Source: Rhodopseudomonas sp. BR0M22
Lineage (GTDB): Bacteria; Pseudomonadota; Alphaproteobacteria; Rhizobiales; Xanthobacteraceae
Assembly (NCBI RefSeq): GCF_010907035.1
Contig: NZ_QUMK01000042.1
Span: 1 to 50,049 of the forward strand
Direction of reading: 5' to 3'
Length of the DNA: 50,049 bases
Shown in pieces: positions 13,645 through 42,594 of this stretch (positions are counted from its first letter, which is position 1; each line of letters opens with the position of its first letter). The translations under genes were made by a program, and so were the position numbers. The notes under the pieces are model-generated. The model was not told where the DNA came from and ran no database searches. It was given only the letters and a program-made list of their open reading frames with translations.

Positions 13645-15963
13645 TCACAGCGGAATTCGGGCGTAGAGGGCGGTGCCCTTGCCCGGCGCGGTTTCGAGTT
13701 CGAGCGTGCCGCCGACCAGCGACAGCCGCTCACGGATGCCGAGCAGACCGAGCCGGTTCGCCGGTTGTTTGGGGCCCGCAGAGGAGAAGCCTCGGCCGTC
13801 GTCTTCGACGATCATCGTGACCTGGCGGTCGTGCAGCCGCAGCATCACGCCGACGTGTCGGGCCGCGGCATGGCGGATCACGTTGGTCAGCGCTTCCTGC
13901 AGCACACGATACAGCGTGGTCTCGACCGCGGGCGGCAGCCGGCTGGCGCCGAGCGTGATGTGCAGATCGAACTCGATGCCCGATCTTTCGCTACAGGAAT
14001 CCAGCAGAGTCTGGATCGCGGTCTGGATGCCGAGATCGTCGAGCGCCGTGGGGCGGATTTCCCACGCGAGCCGATTGGCCTGGCTGCCGATGTCGGCGGT
14101 CAGGCTCTTCATCTCGGCGATCCGCTGCTTCAATTCAGGCGCATCGCCGGCGGCCTGGCCGAGTTTGTCGAAGCCGAGCTGCAACAGGGTCAACGACTGG
14201 CCGAGCGTGTCGTGCAGCTCGCGCGCGATCCGCAGCCGCTCGGCCTCCTGGTCTTCGACGGTCCGGCGCAGCACCTGGGAGAGATCGTCCTCGACCAGCA
14301 CGCGGCGCCGCTTCTCCTCCTGCAGCGTCTGCGCGACGTCCTTCGAGCGATTCAGGCCGATCTCGACCTGTCGCATCAATTGCTCCTGCAGCAGCAGCGC
14401 CGACCGGCGCTCGCGGGCAATGCCGTTGATCCTCCGCAGCACGACGTCGAGCAACGACTGACGCAGTCGGTGGGCCGCTTCGACCTCGGCGCCCAGCCAA
14501 GGCTCGCAGTGCAGTCGCACCTCCTCTTCCCAGCTTGCCGGGCAGCGATTGGCCGAGGGGCGTCCGTCGCCGCTGTCGACGCCGACCGGCTTGTTCGGCG
14601 CGCCGGCCCAGGTGACGCGGCGGACGATCTCGGGGCGAAACCACAACACGTAGTCACGCGGAGTGTTCGACAGCGACAGTGCGATCAGTCCGCAGGCCTG
14701 TGCGGCGAACGCTTTGGACGGCGGATAGGCGAGTGGCAGGCAGTCGGTGTGATACACGCCGTCATGTGCCACGCCGTGCAGCCAGCCGATCAGCGCGGCG
14801 ACCTGCTTGGCGTCCGGAGTGATTCCGGTCCCGGTGAACTGGCCGTCGATCCACAGTCCGACCCCGGCCGCCGGAATGAAATCCAGCAGATCGGGATAGA
14901 AACGGATCAGACCTTCGCCGAGGTCGGACTCCTGGCTCATCCGCGTGACCAGTTCCTCGTGGACGCTGGCGCTGTGCAGGCGTGCTGCGAGCTGCTCGGC
15001 GGCGAGCCGCGCTTCGAGCTGCGACGACGCCATCTCGGCGAACAGCGCGCAGGCCTCGCGCATCCGGTAGGGCAGGAAGCGCGGCACGGCGTGGTGGCAG
15101 ACCATCAAGCCCCAGGGGGCGCCGTCGACGGTCAGCGACACCGACAGCGACGCGGCGACGCCGAGCTGAGCCAGATACAACCGATGCTCCGGCGAGGCGC
15201 TGCGGATCGAACTGTGGGAAAGGTCGAGCACGGCGCCGCTGCGCGGATCGATCCCCGGCATCACCGGCGCGGCTGTTGCGCGGGCATCGGGCTGCAAGCG
15301 GATTCGGCTGCCCGGGCCGGGCTGATTCGGTATGTCGGGCTGCGGATCGCGCAGCCCGAGAAAAGAGCCGATCTCAGGCGCGCGCGCTTCGGCGATCACA
15401 TCGCCGCTGCCGTCTGCCGCGAAGCGATAGACCATCACCCGGTCGAAGCCGGTGACGCTGCGCAGCTCGGCCGCCATTGCTTCACAGAATTCCTGCACCG
15501 TGGAGGCGGACTGCACGCGCCGGAGCATGGACTGAACCAGCGCCAGCGAGTTCTCCGGCGGCTGTTCGCGGCACGGGTCGAGCTCCACCACCAGCAGTCC
15601 GGAGGCGTGATGGGCGATCACGTCGGTCGGCACGGCATCGGGCGGGTCGAGCGTGAACGCATATAACGGCTGCTCGATCGGCTGGTCCGCCGTCGCCAGC
15701 GTGCGCAACCGGGCGATCTGATCGGACGAAAACACCGTGGTGGCCGCGGCCCCAGGCAGCAGCTCCGCGGGCGCGCCGAACAACGCTTCGGTGGCGCCAC
15801 CAGCATGAACGATCGCCAGATTGTCCGGCGCGAGCGCCAGCAAGGCAGCGTGGGGCTGGATCGATCCAGGAGGACTCACCGCCGCGCGCCGGCCGCCGAC
15901 GCGACCGGATGCGGCGCAATCCGCGACGCCAAACTCGGTCGAACTGTCAAGACCAGAGTGCAT
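13645..15963 (-). CDS. bphP4: Bacteriophytochrome-like histidine kinase lacking the bilin-binding cysteine
   Basis: A 772-residue PAS-GAF-PHY sensor with a NarX-type kinase. PGSIQPHA (32-39) marks the PAS domain. Canonical phytochromes have the chromophore Cys eight residues before that Pro; here that position is Gly24, and the nearest Cys, 16, is too far away. GAF-domain signatures SASPEHRLYLAQLGVAASLS and VCHH remain, but PASDIP reads PQPDIP and the PHY tongue PRxSF reads NRCPASW. The H-box RIARELHDTLGQ carries the phosphorylated His near 584; N and G boxes (LQEALTNVIRHA, VEDDGRGF) follow. Published work on R. palustris CGA009 describes such a Cys-less BphP4 as a redox rather than light sensor controlling LH2. 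The protein agrees with that, and the location beside puc supports it. The start is ATG 15963; a GTG lies one codon before. Confidence 0.9.
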   Translation of the reverse strand: MHSGLDSSTEFGVADCAASGRVGGRRAAVSPPGSIQPHAALLALAPDNLAIVHAGGATEALFGAPAELLPGAAATTVFSSDQIARLRTLATADQPIEQPLYAFTLDPPDAVPTDVIAHHASGLLVVELDPCREQPPENSLALVQSMLRRVQSASTVQEFCEAMAAELRSVTGFDRVMVYRFAADGSGDVIAEARAPEIGSFLGLRDPQPDIPNQPGPGSRIRLQPDARATAAPVMPGIDPRSGAVLDLSHSSIRSASPEHRLYLAQLGVAASLSVSLTVDGAPWGLMVCHHAVPRFLPYRMREACALFAEMASSQLEARLAAEQLAARLHSASVHEELVTRMSQESDLGEGLIRFYPDLLDFIPAAGVGLWIDGQFTGTGITPDAKQVAALIGWLHGVAHDGVYHTDCLPLAYPPSKAFAAQACGLIALSLSNTPRDYVLWFRPEIVRRVTWAGAPNKPVGVDSGDGRPSANRCPASWEEEVRLHCEPWLGAEVEAAHRLRQSLLDVVLRRINGIARERRSALLLQEQLMRQVEIGLNRSKDVAQTLQEEKRRRVLVEDDLSQVLRRTVEDQEAERLRIARELHDTLGQSLTLLQLGFDKLGQAAGDAPELKQRIAEMKSLTADIGSQANRLAWEIRPTALDDLGIQTAIQTLLDSCSERSGIEFDLHITLGASRLPPAVETTLYRVLQEALTNVIRHAAARHVGVMLRLHDRQVTMIVEDDGRGFSSAGPKQPANRLGLLGIRERLSLVGGTLELETAPGKGTALYARIPL

Positions 15964-15984
15964 CACAATTTACTCAATTTTCCG

Positions 15985-16042: not shown

Positions 16043-16060
16043 TGTCATGTTAAATTGACA
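16043..16060. promoter_or_regulatory. PpsR/CrtJ-type box 1 of the puc promoter
   Basis: TGTCATGTTAAATTGACA is a perfect TGT-N12-ACA site, the recognition sequence of the redox/light repressor PpsR (CrtJ). Its right half contains TTGACA, a -35-like hexamer, so a bound repressor would cover a sigma-70-type promoter. The right 12 bases recur in the crtD-crtE region. Confidence 0.75.
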
Positions 16061-16068
16061 AAGATGTG

Positions 16069-16086
16069 TGTCAGGATAGTCTTACA
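16069..16086. promoter_or_regulatory. PpsR/CrtJ-type box 2 of the puc promoter
   Basis: TGTCAGGATAGTCTTACA is a second perfect TGT-N12-ACA site, starting 26 bases after the first. Paired boxes allow cooperative PpsR binding in Rhodobacter, which fits this arrangement. Confidence 0.75.
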
Positions 16087-16306: not shown

Positions 16307-16462
16307 ATGGCAGACGATCCCAACAAGGTCTGGCCGACCGGTCTGACGATCGCGGAATCGGAAGAGCTCCACAAGCATGTGATCGACGGCACGCGCATCT
16401 TCGGCGCGATCGCCATCGTCGCTCACTTCCTGGCGTATGTTTACTCGCCCTGGCTGCACTAA
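16307..16462 (+). CDS. pucB: Light-harvesting 2 beta polypeptide
   Basis: A 51-residue LH2 antenna beta subunit. It has an N-terminal cytoplasmic part ([20 protein letters not shown]), an amphipathic [11 protein letters not shown] segment and one membrane span. His40, in [15 protein letters not shown], is the ligand of B850 bacteriochlorophyll; His22 is also conserved in the family. GGAGG lies nine bases before the ATG. It is followed by pucA after 12 bases, the standard puc order. The sequence is a normal LH2-type beta, close to that of Rhodoblastus acidophilus, with no truncation. Confidence 0.96.
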
Positions 16463-16474
16463 GGAGTACGTAAG

Positions 16475-16654
16475 ATGAATCAAGGTCGTATTTGGACTGT
16501 TGTGAAGCCGACCGTCGGTCTTCCGCTCCTGCTCGGCAGCGTCACCGTGATCGCCATCCTGGTGCACTTTGCTGTTCTCAGCAACACCACCTGGTTCCCG
16601 AAGTACTGGAACGGCAAGGCTGCGGCGATCGAGAGCTCGGTCTCCATCGGCTAA
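16475..16654 (+). CDS. pucA: Light-harvesting 2 alpha polypeptide
   Basis: A 59-residue LH2 alpha subunit: [15 protein letters not shown], then one membrane span with His31 (AILVHFAVL), the B850 ligand. The C-terminal [10 protein letters not shown] keeps Tyr44 and Trp45, the residues that hydrogen-bond B850 acetyl groups; LH3 and low-light LH4 variants replace them. So this pair should give a normal B800-850 spectrum rather than a blue-shifted one. The start methionine in the family can carry the B800 ligand. AAGGAG precedes the ATG. The C-terminal tail ([12 protein letters not shown]) is slightly longer than in R. acidophilus. Confidence 0.96.
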
Positions 16655-16684: not shown

Positions 16685-16708
16685 GACCGGGATCCATGGG
16701 TCCCGGTC
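16685..16708 (+). terminator. Stem-loop between pucA and pucC
   Basis: GACCGGGA-TCCATGGG-TCCCGGTC is a perfect 8-bp stem with an 8-base loop, 31 bases after pucA. The following bases are not a true T-run. Such hairpins usually protect the abundant pucBA segment and reduce read-through into pucC, so attenuator or stabiliser is as likely as full terminator. Confidence 0.6.
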
Positions 16709-16841: not shown

Positions 16842-18278
16842 ATGAACACAGTCAGCCAAAAGATGATGAAAGTCTGGGCCTCGCTCGGGCCCCGCTTTCT
16901 GCCTTTCGCGGATGCGGCCACGCCGGATCTGCCGTTGTCCCGGTTGCTGCGCCTGTCGCTGTTTCAGGTCGCGGTCGGCATGTCGCTGGTGCTGCTGGTC
17001 GGCACGCTGAACCGGGTGATGATCGTCGAGCTCAACGTGCCGGCGTCGATCGTCGGCATCATGGTCTCGCTGCCTTTGATTTTCGCGCCGTTCCGGGCGC
17101 TGATCGGCTTCAAGTCCGACATTCACAAATCTGCGCTGGGCTGGCGCCGCGTGCCGTTCCTCTACAAGGGGACCATGGTGCAGTTCGGCGGCCTGGCGAT
17201 TCTGCCGTTCGCGCTGCTGGTGCTGTCGGGCGGCGGTGACGCAGGTCAGGCGCCGGTCTGGGTCGGGCAGGCTGCGGCGGCCACGGCGTTCCTGCTGATC
17301 GGCGCCGGGGTGCACACCACGCAGACCGTCGGGCTCGCGCTGGCGACCGATCTGGCTCCGCCGGACTCGCGGCCGAAGGTGGTCGGCCTGATGTACACGA
17401 TGCTGATGCTGGGCATGATCGCCAGTGCGATCATCTTCGGCATCCTGCTCGCCGACTTTTCGCCCGGCCGCCTCATTCAGGTGATCCAGGGCTCCGCGGT
17501 GGTCACCATCATCCTCAACGGCGTCGCCTCGTGGAAGATGGAGGCGCGCCGCCGCGACAATCCCAATCAGGCGACGCCGCATCCGGATGCGCCGAGCGGT
17601 GGCTTCCGGCAGTCGTGGGATGCGTTCATCCATGGTCCGAATGCGATGCGCCGGCTGGTGGCGGTCGGTTTCGGCACCATGGCGTTCAGCATGGAAGACG
17701 TGCTGCTCGAACCCTATGGCGGACAAATTCTCAATCTGAGCGTCGGTGATACCACCAAGCTCACCGCGGCATTGGCGGTCGGCGGCCTGCTCGGCTTCGG
17801 CTATGCGTCGCGCGTACTGAGCCGCGGCGCCGATCCGTTCCGGATGGCGAGCGCCGGTGCGCTGGTCGGGATTCCCGCCTTCCTCGCCGTGATCTTCTCC
17901 GCGAGCTTGTCGTCGACGATGGCGTCCGCGCTGGTGTTCGGCTTCGGTACGCTGATGATCGGGTTCGGTGCCGGTCTGTTCGGGCACGGCACGCTGACCG
18001 CGACGATGAATGCGGCGCCGAAGGATCAGGTCGGTCTGGCACTCGGCGCATGGGGCGCGGTGCAGGCGTCCGCGGCCGGCATCGCCATTGCGCTCGGTGG
18101 TATTTTGCGTGACCTGGTAACCGCTTACGCGCCGCACGGGTGGGATGGTGCCGCTGCGGGTTATCACTTTGTCTATTATCTCGAACTGGTGTTGCTCATT
18201 GCCACGCTGGTGACGATGTTCCCTCTGACGCGGCGGCGCGACACGATTCTGATGCAGGGCCAGTTGACCAGGTCCTGA
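16842..18278 (+). CDS. pucC: PucC-type LH2 assembly factor (BCD family)
   Basis: A 478-residue protein with about twelve membrane spans, from the BCD branch of the major facilitator superfamily that includes PucC, LhaA and Bch2. These proteins are needed to assemble LH2 or LH1, probably by delivering bacteriochlorophyll. Conserved blocks are RLSLFQVAVGMSLVLLVGTLNRVMIVEL (about residues 33-60), PFRALIGFKSDIHKSALGWRRVPFLYKG (about 86-113) and MAFSMEDVLLEPYGG (about 280-295). Its position right after pucBA supports LH2 as the target. The ATG at 16842 has only a weak upstream purine stretch, in line with lower expression than pucBA. Confidence 0.95.
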   Translation: MNTVSQKMMKVWASLGPRFLPFADAATPDLPLSRLLRLSLFQVAVGMSLVLLVGTLNRVMIVELNVPASIVGIMVSLPLIFAPFRALIGFKSDIHKSALGWRRVPFLYKGTMVQFGGLAILPFALLVLSGGGDAGQAPVWVGQAAAATAFLLIGAGVHTTQTVGLALATDLAPPDSRPKVVGLMYTMLMLGMIASAIIFGILLADFSPGRLIQVIQGSAVVTIILNGVASWKMEARRRDNPNQATPHPDAPSGGFRQSWDAFIHGPNAMRRLVAVGFGTMAFSMEDVLLEPYGGQILNLSVGDTTKLTAALAVGGLLGFGYASRVLSRGADPFRMASAGALVGIPAFLAVIFSASLSSTMASALVFGFGTLMIGFGAGLFGHGTLTATMNAAPKDQVGLALGAWGAVQASAAGIAIALGGILRDLVTAYAPHGWDGAAAGYHFVYYLELVLLIATLVTMFPLTRRRDTILMQGQLTRS

Positions 18279-18296: not shown

Positions 18297-18944
18297 ATGA
18301 CGCAAATCATCGCCCGCTTGTATGACTCCGGCAGCCGCCTGTCGGCGCTCGAAAGCGATCTGAAGAGCAGCAATTTCAAGTACGCGGTGGTGTCGGCAGG
18401 CCGGTCGTCGGCCGAAGAGACCGCTGCGGCGCTCGTCAAGGCCGGCGTGTCACGCTCGGAAGCAGCGACCTACGCCGACTATCTGAAGAAGGGTGGCGTC
18501 GTTGTCGCGGCGCAGGCCGAGTTCGGCTTCGGCGCCAAGCTGACCAAGATTCTCGACGGCTACGGGCCGAACCCGATCAGCCTGAAGTCGTCGTCCTCGC
18601 ACGCCGCCGATCAGAGCGTAGGTGCGCCGTTCTCCAACATGATCCACGCGCCGGTGCTGCTCGACACGTCCGGCCCGTACAAATCCTATTCCGGTGACTT
18701 GCTGCTGGTCGACAGCGACAAGACCTTCTCTGGTACGCCGCTGGTTATCAGCAGCGATGGCCCGTATCAGTCGTTCTCCGGAACACCGTTGTTGCTCGAC
18801 AGCAGCGGCCCGTACAAGTCCTTCTCAGGGACTCCTCTGTTGCTGGACACCAGCGGTCCGTACAAGTCGTACTCGGGCGAGCCGCTGTTGATCAACAACT
18901 CCACACCCTTCTCCTCCTGGCTGGGCCTGCCAGTGCTCCTCTAA
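18297..18944 (+). CDS. Repeat protein with a stress-protein-like N-terminal domain
   Basis: A 215-residue soluble protein of no family I can name. Residues 1 to about 95 resemble the general-stress-protein 17M/YflT-like fold: an opening strand (QIIARLYDSG), a helix (ALESDLKSS), a second strand (FKYAVVSAG), a helix with ETAAALVKAGVSRSEAATYADYLKKGG, then the strand VVVAAQAE. From about residue 117 the chain is built of imperfect 16-residue repeats with the pattern GPYKSFSG-TPLLLDSS, five or six copies. No signal peptide or membrane span is visible. GGAG precedes the ATG, and pucC ends 18 bases upstream, so it should be co-transcribed with puc. By position it could be an LH2 assembly or stability factor; that is inference only. 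Confidence 0.85.
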   Translation: MTQIIARLYDSGSRLSALESDLKSSNFKYAVVSAGRSSAEETAAALVKAGVSRSEAATYADYLKKGGVVVAAQAEFGFGAKLTKILDGYGPNPISLKSSSSHAADQSVGAPFSNMIHAPVLLDTSGPYKSYSGDLLLVDSDKTFSGTPLVISSDGPYQSFSGTPLLLDSSGPYKSFSGTPLLLDTSGPYKSYSGEPLLINNSTPFSSWLGLPVLL

Positions 18945-18960
18945 GTAAAAGGAATCGACC

Positions 18961-19254
18961 ATGAGCGAAGAATACAAAGGACATTCCGGTCACCCGCTGA
19001 TCCTCAAGCAGGAAGGCGAGTACAAGAGCTATTCCGGCGAGCCGCTGATCCTGAAGCAGGAAGGCGAGTACAAGGGCTACTCTGGTACTCCGCTGATCCT
19101 CGAGCAGAAGGGCGAGTATCAGAGCTTCTCCGGCACGCCGCTGATCCTGAAGGACGAAGGCGAATATCGGGGCTTCTCCGGTATGCCGCTGATCCTGAAG
19201 CAGGAAGGCGAGTACAAGTCGTTCTCCGGCTATCCGCTGCTGCTCAACATCTGA
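18961..19254 (+). CDS. 97-residue protein made entirely of six 16-residue repeats
   Basis: After MSE the whole protein is six tandem copies of a 16-residue unit, consensus EYKSYSGTPLILKQEG, the last copy cut to 14 residues. The invariant frame is Y-x-x-[HYF]-S-G-x-P-L-[IL]-L. The unit is the same as in the preceding gene (GPYKSFSGTPLLLDSS there), but the linker residues are changed from neutral DSS-GP to charged KQE-GE. A turn at S-G, a PLIL strand and an aromatic strand suggest a regular beta structure. No signal peptide, Cys or membrane span is present. AAAGGAA precedes the ATG, 16 bases after the previous stop. It is the last gene of the puc operon. I do not recognise the family. Confidence 0.88.
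   Translation: MSEEYKGHSGHPLILKQEGEYKSYSGEPLILKQEGEYKGYSGTPLILEQKGEYQSFSGTPLILKDEGEYRGFSGMPLILKQEGEYKSFSGYPLLLNI
18970..19251 (+). repeat. Six tandem 48-bp coding repeats
   Basis: The DNA of the repeat protein gene is itself a tandem array with a 48-base period, starting at 18970, six units with the last cut short. Differences between copies are largely at third codon positions plus a few replacements, which indicates selection on the peptide repeat rather than very recent duplication. Confidence 0.85.
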
Positions 19255-19279
19255 GCCATCGGCGCCTTACAGGTCCCAT

Positions 19280-19309
19280 GACGCCGCGGGCAGCAATGTC
19301 CGCGGCGTC
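19280..19309 (+). terminator. Hairpin ending the puc operon
   Basis: GACGCCGCGG-GCAGCAATGT-CCGCGGCGTC is a perfect 10-bp stem with a 10-base loop, 25 bases after the last puc-operon stop, followed by GTGCGTTTGG. The T-run is short, but the stem is very stable. Confidence 0.7.
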
Positions 19310-19395
19310 GTGCGTTTGGATCGCAAAAAAGTGCTGGGCAAATTCGCCTGCAGCGGCCAATCTGTTTCCAACGACACAAAAAAAGTCGAGGAAAC

Positions 19396-39919: not shown

Positions 39920-39932
39920 ATCAAAGACGGAT

Positions 39933-39950
39933 TGTCAGGACCTGCTTACA
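39933..39950. promoter_or_regulatory. PpsR/CrtJ-type box 1 before crtI
   Basis: TGTCAGGACCTGCTTACA is a perfect TGT-N12-ACA site, 62 bases upstream of the crtI ATG. It resembles box 2 of puc (both start TGTCAGGA and end CTTACA). Confidence 0.75.
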
Positions 39951-39967
39951 GATTGCCGCTAGCCCTC

Positions 39968-39985
39968 TGTCAATTTTTTGTTACA
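39968..39985. promoter_or_regulatory. PpsR/CrtJ-type box 2 before crtI
   Basis: TGTCAATTTTTTGTTACA is another perfect TGT-N12-ACA site, starting 35 bases after the first and ending nine bases before the crtI ATG. Its closeness to the start codon implies a short leader or a roadblock-type site. Confidence 0.75.
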
Positions 39986-39994
39986 GTGGTACCC

Positions 39995-41530
39995 ATGCTC
40001 GATCCTGGCTCCAATCCTGCTGTTCGTTCTCTTCGCGATCATGCTCCGCATGCGGTGGTGATCGGCTCCGGCTTCGGCGGTCTCGCTGCCGCCGTGCGGC
40101 TCGGCGCCAGGGGGTATCGGGTTACTGTTTTGGAGAAGCTCGATCAGCCAGGCGGTCGTGCTTACGTGCACCGGCAGGATGGCTTCGCGTTCGACGCCGG
40201 CCCGACCATCGTGACTGCGCCGTATCTGTTCGAAGAGCTGTGGAAGCTGTGCGGCAAGCGGATGTCGGACGACATCACGTTGAAGCCGATGTCGCCGTTC
40301 TATCGCATCCGGTTCGACGACGGTACGCACTTCGACTATTCCGACGACCGCAACGCGGTGCTGGATCAGATCGCCAAGTTCTGTCCCGACGACGTGCCGG
40401 CCTACGACCGCTTCATGGCGGCGTCGCACGAGATCTTCAAAGTCGGTTTCGAGCAGCTCGGCGATCAGCCGTTCAGCCACTTCACCGACATGCTGAAGAT
40501 CGCGCCGGCGATGATCAAGCTCGAGAGCTATCGCAGCGTCTACGGTTTGGTCGCCAAGCACTTCAAGGATCCGAAGCTGCGCCAGGTGTTCAGCTTCCAT
40601 CCGCTGTTGATCGGCGGCAACCCGTTCATGTCGAGCTCGGTGTACTGCCTGATCACCTATCTGGAAAAACAGTGGGGCGTGCATTCGGCGATGGGCGGCA
40701 CCGGCGCGCTGGTCGCCGGGCTGGTCAAGCTGATCGAAGGGCAGGGCAACGAGATCCGCTACAACCAGGATGTCCGCCAGATCGTCGTCGAGAACGGCAC
40801 CGCGACCGGCGTGAAGCTTGCGGACGGCGAAGTGATCAAGGCCGATATCGTGGTGTCGAATGCCGATTCGGCCTCGACCTATCGCTATCTGCTGCCGCCG
40901 GAGACGCGTAAGCGCTGGACCGACGCCAAGATCGAGAAGTCGCGCTACTCGATGAGCCTGTTCGTCTGGTACTTCGGCACGAAGCGCCGTTACGAGGACG
41001 TCAAGCACCACACCATTCTGCTCGGGCCGCGCTATCGCGAATTGATCAGCGATATCTTCAGCCGCAAGGTGGTGGCCGACGATTTCAGCCTGTACCTGCA
41101 TCGTCCGACCGCGACCGACCCGTCGCTGGCCCCGCAGGGATGCGACACGTTCTATGTGTTGTCGCCGGTGCCGAATCTGCTCGGCAATGTCGATTGGCAC
41201 AGCAAGGCGGAGCCGTATCGCGCTGCGATCGCCAAGATGTTGGGCGCGACCATTCTGCCGGATCTCGAAAATCAGATCGCAACTTCGAAGATCACAACGC
41301 CGCTCGATTTCCAGGACCGGCTGTCGTCGTTCCGCGGCGCTGCGTTCGGTCTGGAGCCGGTGCTGTGGCAAAGCGCCTGGTTCAGGCCTCACAATCAAAG
41401 TGAAGACGTCAAAAGGCTTTATCTCGTCGGCGCCGGAACGCATCCCGGCGCTGGCCTGCCCGGGGTTCTATCCTCGGCGCGGGTCCTCGATGCGCTGGTC
41501 CCCGAGGCCGACAGTTTGGTGACATCATGA
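39995..41530 (+). CDS. crtI: Phytoene desaturase
   Basis: A 511-residue FAD-dependent desaturase that converts phytoene to lycopene (or neurosporene) in the membrane. FAD-binding motif: AVVIGSGFGGLAAAVRLGARGYRVTVLEK (about residues 20-48). The carotenoid dehydrogenase signature LYLVGAGTHPGAGLPGVLSSARV lies near the C-terminus (about residues 475-498). A longer frame opens at 39932 (TTG), but that would cover both PpsR boxes, so the ATG at 39995 is the better start. The stop overlaps the crtB ATG by four bases. Confidence 0.96.
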   Translation: MLDPGSNPAVRSLRDHAPHAVVIGSGFGGLAAAVRLGARGYRVTVLEKLDQPGGRAYVHRQDGFAFDAGPTIVTAPYLFEELWKLCGKRMSDDITLKPMSPFYRIRFDDGTHFDYSDDRNAVLDQIAKFCPDDVPAYDRFMAASHEIFKVGFEQLGDQPFSHFTDMLKIAPAMIKLESYRSVYGLVAKHFKDPKLRQVFSFHPLLIGGNPFMSSSVYCLITYLEKQWGVHSAMGGTGALVAGLVKLIEGQGNEIRYNQDVRQIVVENGTATGVKLADGEVIKADIVVSNADSASTYRYLLPPETRKRWTDAKIEKSRYSMSLFVWYFGTKRRYEDVKHHTILLGPRYRELISDIFSRKVVADDFSLYLHRPTATDPSLAPQGCDTFYVLSPVPNLLGNVDWHSKAEPYRAAIAKMLGATILPDLENQIATSKITTPLDFQDRLSSFRGAAFGLEPVLWQSAWFRPHNQSEDVKRLYLVGAGTHPGAGLPGVLSSARVLDALVPEADSLVTS

Positions 41531-42594
41531 GTTTGCAATCCGATATGTTGGCCCAATCCGACATGCTGGCGTGCCGCGAGATGATCAAGGAAGGCTCGCA
41601 CACCTTCCACGCGGCCTCGATGGTGTTGCCGCGCCGGATCAGCGATCCGGCGATCGCCCTGTATGCGTTTTGCCGCGTCGCCGACGATGCCGTCGATCTC
41701 GGGCTCGATCGCGCCGCCGCGGTCGAAGTGCTGAAGGATCGCCTCGATCGCGCCTGCCGCGGCGTGCCGCGGGCCTATCCGTCCGACCGCGCCTTCGCTG
41801 ATGTGGTGGCGCGGTTTTCGATTCCGCCGGCGATTCCCGAGGCGCTGATCGAGGGCCTGGAGTGGGACGCGCAGGGCCGCCGCTTCGAAACACTGTCTGA
41901 TCTGTATTCCTATTGCGCCCGCGTCGCCGGCACCGTCGGCGTGATGATGACGCTGGTGATGGGGCAGCGCAAACCCGACATCGTGGCGCGCGCCTGCGAC
42001 CTCGGCTGCGCGATGCAGCTCACCAATATCGCGCGTGATATCGGTGAAGACGCGCGCAACGGCCGCATCTACATGCCGCTGCAATGGATGCGTGAAGCGG
42101 GCGTCGATCCGGAAGTTTGGCTCGCCGATCCGAAATTCACGCCGCAGATCGCCGGCATCGTCAAGCGGCTGATCGACACCGCCGACGCGCTGTATGATCG
42201 CGCCACGCTCGGTATCGCCAACCTGCCGCGCTCCTGCCGTCCCGGCATTTTCGCGGCGCGCGCGCTGTACGCCGAGATCGGCCGCGAGGTCGAGCGCTCC
42301 GGCCTCGATTCGGTGTCGAGCCGTGCGGTGGTGTCGACCGGTCGCAAACTTGCGGTCCTTGCCCGCCTGCTGGCGTTCCAGGAAACCGAATGGGCCCCGG
42401 CGAAGTATCTGCCGGCCAAATTCGGCGACATGGAGGAGACCAAGTTTCTGGTCGACGCCGTGATCGCGCATCCGGTGCGCGAGATGCCGCCGCGCCAGAA
42501 GATCAAGCCGGTCGAGCAGAAGGTGGCCTGGTTGGTCGACCTGTTCACCCGCCTCGAACGCCGCGACCAGATGCTGCAACGCAGCCGGGTGTAG
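41527..42594 (+). CDS. crtB: Phytoene synthase
   Basis: A 355-residue enzyme that joins two geranylgeranyl diphosphates to phytoene. The first Asp-rich motif is RVADDAVDLGLD (about residues 50-61), the second NIARDIGEDARNGRIYMPLQWM (about 164-185), typical of the squalene/phytoene synthase family. It overlaps crtI (ATGA), so translation is coupled. After the stop at 42594 comes a 333-base repeat-containing gap, and no hairpin with a T-run is visible. GGPP would come from CrtE at 48.7 kb. Confidence 0.96.
   Translation: MSLQSDMLAQSDMLACREMIKEGSHTFHAASMVLPRRISDPAIALYAFCRVADDAVDLGLDRAAAVEVLKDRLDRACRGVPRAYPSDRAFADVVARFSIPPAIPEALIEGLEWDAQGRRFETLSDLYSYCARVAGTVGVMMTLVMGQRKPDIVARACDLGCAMQLTNIARDIGEDARNGRIYMPLQWMREAGVDPEVWLADPKFTPQIAGIVKRLIDTADALYDRATLGIANLPRSCRPGIFAARALYAEIGREVERSGLDSVSSRAVVSTGRKLAVLARLLAFQETEWAPAKYLPAKFGDMEETKFLVDAVIAHPVREMPPRQKIKPVEQKVAWLVDLFTRLERRDQMLQRSRV

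Follow-up and report, generated by a model that had tools for sequence, protein, structure and literature searches.

An apparently undescribed relative of LH2-gamma in a wider protein family linked to LH2 operons

LH2-gamma and the operon that encodes it

LH2-gamma, resolved by cryo-EM in 2022, is a BChl-binding ribbon that lies around six of the nine alpha-beta pairs of the Rhodopseudomonas palustris LH2 (PMC9618040). According to the excerpts of that paper used here, gamma is wound around a portion of the LH2 ring, close to the cytoplasmic side, and carries six BChl, one per repeat, through serine-Mg coordination. The same excerpts describe gamma as restricted to Rhodopseudomonas, with a single candidate gene, and report one extra band near 10 kDa in SDS-PAGE of purified LH2, where a 22-kDa band is not named. 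PucC is required for efficient LH2 assembly in three species, and its deletion or interruption reduces LH2 assembly in Rhodobacter and Rubrivivax (excerpts of PMC4949548).

A stretch of 50,049 nucleotides from Rhodopseudomonas sp. BR0M22 (contig NZ_QUMK01000042.1), referred to here as the window, contains an LH2 operon in which pucB, pucA, pucC, gL and gamma all lie on the + strand; gL is a working name. The gaps between pucC and gL (18 bp) and between gL and gamma (16 bp) agree with an initial annotation, made from the sequence alone, which had placed both genes within 16-18 bases of the gene before. The features are as follows, with coordinates in the window.

16043..16060, + strand: TGTN12ACA box 5' of pucB (motif scan)
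16069..16086, + strand: second TGTN12ACA box 5' of pucB (motif scan)
16307..16462, + strand: pucB, LH2 beta polypeptide (sequence and pattern recognition)
16475..16654, + strand: pucA, LH2 alpha polypeptide (residues Y44 W45)
16685..16708, + strand: 10-bp stem-loop between pucA and pucC (terminator-like sites: 3 found, 2.0 expected)
16842..18278, + strand: pucC, PUCC-family protein for LH2 assembly (Pfam PF03209, E 1.2e-149)
18297..18944, + strand: gL, 215 aa, YflT-like N-terminal domain and gamma-type ribbon tail
18297..18578, + strand: gL N-terminal domain, residues 1-94 (model, and profile link to YflT-type proteins)
18621..18941, + strand: gL tail, residues 109-215, five SG units between two serine-less ones
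18961..19254, + strand: LH2-gamma, 97 aa, six BChl-ligand serines (identity to PDB 7zcu_S)
19272..19322, + strand: strong hairpin closing the gene run (folding against shuffles)

Judged by the table in the excerpts of PMC5069747, the window pucA is of the LH2 type (Y44 W45). The gene run ends, as the initial annotation had it, at a strong hairpin 3' of gamma (-40.5 kcal/mol, z -3.78), and none of 200 shuffles folds as well. No T-run directly follows this hairpin, which is absent from the terminator-scan list, and a search of Rfam over the operon returned no matches. gL and gamma are the last genes of the LH2 operon. The TGTN12ACA box, which we take to be a PpsR-type motif, matches six times in the window against 3.57 expected, so that the motif alone is not significant.

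Two further TGTN12ACA boxes (39933-39950 and 39968-39985), 18 bp apart, mark the beginning of a gene that resembles crtI (39932-41530), and a crtB-like gene (41527-42594) comes next; both names were given by eye from the sequence. A bacteriophytochrome-type histidine kinase (13645-15966, - strand) is divergent from the puc operon, and genes like it also flank the puc operons of several relatives.

The product of the last gene consists of six 16-residue units, as had been claimed, with the SG serines at residues 9, 25, 41, 57, 73 and 89. Its period-16 self-similarity exceeds that of all 2000 shuffles (z 27.7), and Tandem Repeats Finder reports a 48-bp period in both the gL gene and the gamma gene. 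The statement that no described system of this kind was known is, for the last gene, overturned by the structure of 2022 (excerpts of PMC9618040). In the PDB the protein matches one chain, 7zcu_S "PucA-LH2-gamma" (E 3.6e-57), with 93 of 97 residues identical over the full length, and by this sequence identity the product of 18961-19254 is assigned to LH2-gamma, an already known subunit. In one sample genome (L006), gamma is identical to 7zcu_S and follows directly after pucC and gL. Assignments of gamma to the beta/gamma crystallins (PF00030, 16.7 bits against a cut-off of 25) and to DUF3823 (below the Pfam cut-off) have been rejected.

The initial annotation had proposed that the two repeat proteins form a soluble beta-repeat scaffold, with neutral linkers in one member and charged linkers in the other. 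The linkers do differ in this way, with neutral DSSGP in gL and charged KQEGE in gamma, and the sequence is repetitive. Solved gamma, however, is a ribbon in the plane of the membrane without beta-sheet (excerpts of PMC9618040), which contradicts the proposal for gamma and makes a soluble scaffold of gL and gamma for LH2 storage or packing highly improbable.

Two parts of the gL protein

The gene before gamma had been annotated as carrying five or six copies of the unit in its C-terminal half, and what is found there is five SG units, with serines at residues 132, 145, 161, 177 and 193, flanked by two serine-less units like them (PFSNMIHAPVLL and PFSSWLGLPVLL). In these end units the serine has been replaced, giving FSNMIHAP at the start and SSWLGLP at the end. 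The period-16 self-similarity of the tail is greater than in all 2000 shuffles (z 18.8), while residues 1-105 lack this period, their best value being attained in 1116 of 2000 shuffles. Residues 142-200 match 7zcu_S with an E-value of 1.6e-27, and at the sequence level gL and gamma are homologous through the SG-unit ribbon. gL has not been classed as a gamma, as it has 215 aa, an extra folded domain and five SG units.

The tail of gL is under strong purifying selection (dN/dS 0.11-0.22). A separate observation concerns the stretch 18660-18959 in the palustris-like group (five loci), in which third-codon-position differences drop to 0-6% across the repeat tail of gL, compared with 9-41% in gL before the tail and 7-39% in most of pucC. 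Within gL of this group, the NG86 dS values are 0.04-0.12 for the tail but 0.27-0.69 for the N-terminal domain; the third-position dip is only mild in four more distant strains. The same stretch folds better than 200 shuffles (z -3.01). The dip could reflect recombination within the clade or constraint at the nucleotide level.

No Pfam or NCBIfam family matches gL at its cut-off, and no Pfam family, PF11181 included, does so at E<=1. The profile of the N-terminal domain, compared with a profile of seven YflT-type proteins from the family sample described below, gives an hhalign E-value of 1.4e-12 (a single comparison) and a probability of 97.7; three of the seven have been scanned, and all three carry PF11181 above the cut-off. 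Structure prediction, an approach suggested by the initial annotation, has been informative for the N-terminal domain but not for the ribbon. Residues 1-94 are modelled as beta-alpha-beta-alpha-alpha-beta-alpha (mean pLDDT 80.4, pTM 0.64), whereas the full-length model has a pLDDT of about 30 in the ribbon tail and is uninformative there. A Foldseek search of the PDB with gL gave no match at E<=0.001, and folds such as NDK, cytokinin dehydrogenase or PstA have been rejected for the N-terminal domain (best E>=0.069, not significant).

A folded domain (pLDDT 80) followed by a low-confidence ribbon, together with the long neutral linkers, would also suit a connector, in which the ribbon grips one LH2 ring while rings are linked to each other, or to RC-LH1, through the N-terminal domain, so that gL organises the membrane. 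There is no sign of self-association or of a partner and nothing directly in favour of such a function, and we regard it as improbable.

According to the excerpts of PMC5069747, RPA1491 is pucBe and RPA1492 is pucAe; by gene order, gL should therefore be RPA1494. A literature search of CC-licensed papers without preprints, in which absence is weak evidence, returned no paper on the gL gene and no occurrence of the term RPA1494.

Repeat numbers and linkage to puc operons

In the Rhodopseudomonas group, five SG units are present in all 22 gL ORFs, despite unit lengths of 13 and 16. Of the 20 short gamma ORFs in this group, 19 have six SG units, and a 68-aa copy in G008 has four. The gammas of R. 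faecalis and JSC-3b have mostly 13-residue units and retain the six serines. A third type, consisting of repeats only (145 aa; here gamma8), has eight SG units in all four ORFs, together with a serine-less end unit. The gamma8 loci come from four genomes and lie within or next to low-light-type puc operons, of the LH4 or LH2' type.

L044 11165-11602: gamma8
L045 6073-6510: gamma8
L046 3077-3514: gamma8
L049 225-662: gamma8

In G008 and G011, gamma8 shares its operon with an alpha chain bearing the LH4 residues M26, F44 and M45, and in G020 the alpha chain of the operon has Y44 and M45, which is LH2' by the table excerpted from PMC5069747. In G013 the contig begins just before gamma8, and a convergent LH4-type pucA is located 1410 bp away. 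A second gL lies directly after an LH4-type pucBA in G006 and after an LH3-type pucBA in G015, and neither pucC nor gamma is present there.

These numbers bear on the chief rival to the reading preferred below, namely that gL is a stoichiometric, pigment-bearing alternative to gamma in some LH2 or LH4/LH3-type rings. In its favour are the conservation of all five ligand-type serines throughout the 22 Rhodopseudomonas-group gL ORFs, the presence of gL without gamma in the LH4/LH3-type operons of G006 and G015, and a tail that is subject to strong purifying selection (dN/dS 0.11-0.22). However, most relatives lack the serines yet keep the gL gene, the extra band of purified LH2 near 10 kDa has the size of gamma (excerpts of PMC9618040), and seven gL units plus six gamma units exceed the nine pairs of a ring. 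Such a subunit is possible but rather unlikely.

The distribution of gL has been followed by profile searches in two samples, one of 391 genomes from the family and one of 397 from the order. Scoring covered a small number of first-look candidates in each genome (seven in the searches for gL and its relatives, four for PucC), and further copies may have been missed. In the family sample, 33 of 391 genomes match the gL profile at E<=1e-5 and 21 at E<=1e-20 (all at 1.8e-26 or better). The 21 strong matches are 16 genomes of the window's own genus and G020, G060, G064, G150 and G331. The other 12 (2.1e-7 to 9.7e-6) are confined to about profile positions 33-117; seven proteins from them have been aligned, and the three that were scanned all have PF11181. 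PucC (PF03209, E<=1e-40) is present in 51 of 391 family genomes, including all 21 with gL. The remaining 30, with no gL match at E<=1e-20, presumably lack an LH2 operon, since they have at most two PucC-family copies.

gL adjoins pucC in 20 of the 21 genomes. In the last, G013, contig ends interrupt the locus, and what can be seen there is limited to gamma-type pieces and gamma8. The order sample adds 15 genomes besides the window's own that match the profile at E<=1e-8, from seven other families, and gL is beside pucBA and pucC in all 15, a linkage counted from gL matches only, so that LH2 genomes without gL may exist. The arrangement is pucB-pucA-pucC-gL in 12, pucA-gL-pucC in two, and in one gL and pucB are divergent with 321 bp between them. 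With the window's own family, this co-location of gL with puc genes extends across eight families. The association with puc genes that a profile search had been expected to show is borne out (PucC in 21 of 21 family genomes, a place beside pucBA and pucC in 15 of 15 order genomes), and in these samples the homologues are not mostly in LH2-less genomes. A repeat family unrelated to LH2 is rejected on these counts.

A plasmid search with gL gave no match, and one with PucC gave 11 records. A pattern scan of viral contigs gave 12 matches, none of them to a relative.

One genome outside the genus, G150, deserves a separate description. It is a single-contig genome of 5.8 Mb, listed as 100% complete, with one PucC-family copy and a locus (L051) that contains pucB-pucA-pucC-gL and a bacteriophytochrome. 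No reaction-centre match (PF00124) and no BchY match (TIGR02015) were obtained in it. Either G150 has an LH2 operon without visible photosynthesis genes or these are on another replicon. With gL kept in such an operon, a role in LH2 assembly is insufficient as the sole explanation.

Paralogs of the gL N-terminal domain are also found outside puc operons. Two are on other contigs of the same genome as the window (L161, 6283-6816; L162, 6460-6912). The paralogs of this kind carry GLPVLL or SNTFFSGFPLL units, and several adjoin an alpha-amylase-like gene. They are present in all 19 Rhodopseudomonas-group genomes among the 391; elsewhere they are matched only through gL itself. Together with the relationship of the N-terminal domain to YflT-type proteins, these further paralogs would fit a stress protein that shares the puc promoter and whose tail binds membrane or free pigment and limits photodamage. 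We consider this very improbable, given the tight co-location with pucBA and pucC across eight families and the homology of the tail to an LH2 subunit.

None of the 17 gL proteins from outside the Rhodopseudomonas group has at least three SG units (the strict pattern gives a motif count of 0 in each), and their tails are built of units such as NPAPLSSLLGLPVLS. Self-similarity is highest at lag 16 in 13 of the 15 tails from the order sample, and the lag-16 value is reached by 0 of 500 shuffles in seven of the 15 and by 2 of 500 in one. In two tails clipped to 37 residues by the motif, 14 and 17 of 500 shuffles reach the best value; in four tails 51 to 107 do, and period 16 is thus not significant everywhere. 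The L159 tail peaks at lag 26. Of the 51 residues scored where the ligand serine would stand, 38 are hydrophobic, six are Ser, three Thr, three Lys and one Gly, with L159 excluded from the alignment and these counts and the register caught partly for L148, L150, L155 and L160. S/T-G units are found at the second tail position (for example in L146, L148, L150, L154 and L156-L158), and a single pigment site in some relatives is therefore possible.

A profile of 16 divergent proteins finds the window gL at 102.3 bits, and by such sequence comparisons the homology of gL across the order is firm. A profile of the divergent tails gives scores of 50.9 bits for gL and 13.0 bits (E 0.0043) for gamma, the best of 1000 shuffles reaching 6.0 bits, and in the reverse search the gamma profile beats the best shuffle in six of 16 divergent proteins. 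The link between the divergent ribbons and gamma is weak when the Rhodopseudomonas rows are left out, and their homology depends mainly on the Rhodopseudomonas gL as a bridge.

Proposed role and origin of gL

We propose, with a probability of about 50%, that gL is the parent type of gamma, that it docks on the LH2 ring and acts with PucC in assembling or holding the ring, and that the Rhodopseudomonas gL may bind up to five BChl. The N-terminal part, a small alpha/beta domain, would descend from stress proteins of the YflT type, and the tandem 16-residue ribbon that follows would lie on the outer surface of nascent or finished LH2 rings, on the same face as gamma, with the N-terminal domain remaining cytoplasmic. 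In most relatives outside Rhodopseudomonas, where the ribbon positions are hydrophobic, gL would work mainly without BChl, while five BChl at most are predicted for the Rhodopseudomonas protein. Contact with the ring, binding of BChl and assistance in assembly are all deduced from the comparisons given above.

Assembly or ring-holding appears the likeliest function because of the neutral linkers, the folded domain and the constant place beside pucC, and because gL is retained where the serines are missing while purified LH2 shows a single extra band of 10 kDa (excerpts of PMC9618040). In those excerpts no 22-kDa band is named, which fits a transient or minor gL, although its absence from purified LH2 is not thereby established. 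The initial annotation had suggested a role in LH2 assembly, storage or packing; assembly survives as the leading reading for gL, and no support was found for storage or packing.

gL is present without gamma in G150, G331, all 15 order genomes and the second operons of G006 and G015, and the short gamma has been seen only in genomes that also have gL. It is probable that gL is older than gamma and represents the parent type of the ribbon. Since the order tails largely keep the register and have hydrophobic residues at 38 of 51 ligand positions, gamma looks like an offshoot of gL. The simplest sequence of events would begin with gL, continue with the gain of serine in its ribbon and end with gamma as a separate gene. 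In Rhodopseudomonas, five gL units would have gained the serine, and gamma would have arisen from the gL tail as a pigment-carrying subunit.

A broader reading is put forward more tentatively, at slightly worse than even odds. It holds that gL founds an unrecognised ribbon family of LH2 operons across the order, whose rings would be built with, or would carry, a ribbon unseen in structures; that gamma came from the gL tail by exchange of hydrophobic residues for serine at a single position of the 16-residue repeat; and that the serine count, which is five in gL, six in gamma and eight in gamma8, then became a genetic dial setting how many additional 800-nm pigments are carried. Gamma, described in 2022 as an orphan of Rhodopseudomonas only (excerpts of PMC9618040), gains a probable parent in the wider gL family, and with it a likely route from a pigment-free repeat protein to a pigment-binding subunit. 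gL is also a candidate LH2 assembly gene, located next to pucC in eight or more families of a single bacterial order, and the eight serines of gamma8 predict that some low-light antennas have rings carrying eight additional BChl.

The described systems nearest to these proteins include LH2-gamma of R. palustris (RPA1495; PDB 7zcu, 7zdi, 7ze3 and 7ze8). The 97-aa protein of the window is the same subunit, with all six SG serines, whereas gL has an extra YflT-like domain, one SG unit fewer (five), end units that lack the serine, and linkers that are neutral. The N-terminal domain of gL is similar, by the profile-profile match, to the YflT heat-induced stress domain (PF11181), but it lacks the glycine-rich hydrophobic insert that the YflT-type proteins have between their two halves. 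In Rhodobacter, PucD and PucE are encoded by extra puc genes that follow pucC in the operon, as gL does, and PucE is associated with LH2. PucC/LhaA (PF03209), the product of the gene beside gL, functions in LH2 assembly (excerpts of PMC4949548) and is a twelve-helix membrane protein, unrelated to gL in sequence. LH1 gamma of Blastochloris viridis is, like the ribbon, a small extra polypeptide outside an antenna ring; as far as the excerpted source describes it, there is one per LH1 subunit, 16 in total, placed between beta polypeptides, and it forms no repeat ribbon. Of the two repeat proteins, gamma is already known, and gL is apparently an undescribed relative of it in a wider family linked to LH2.
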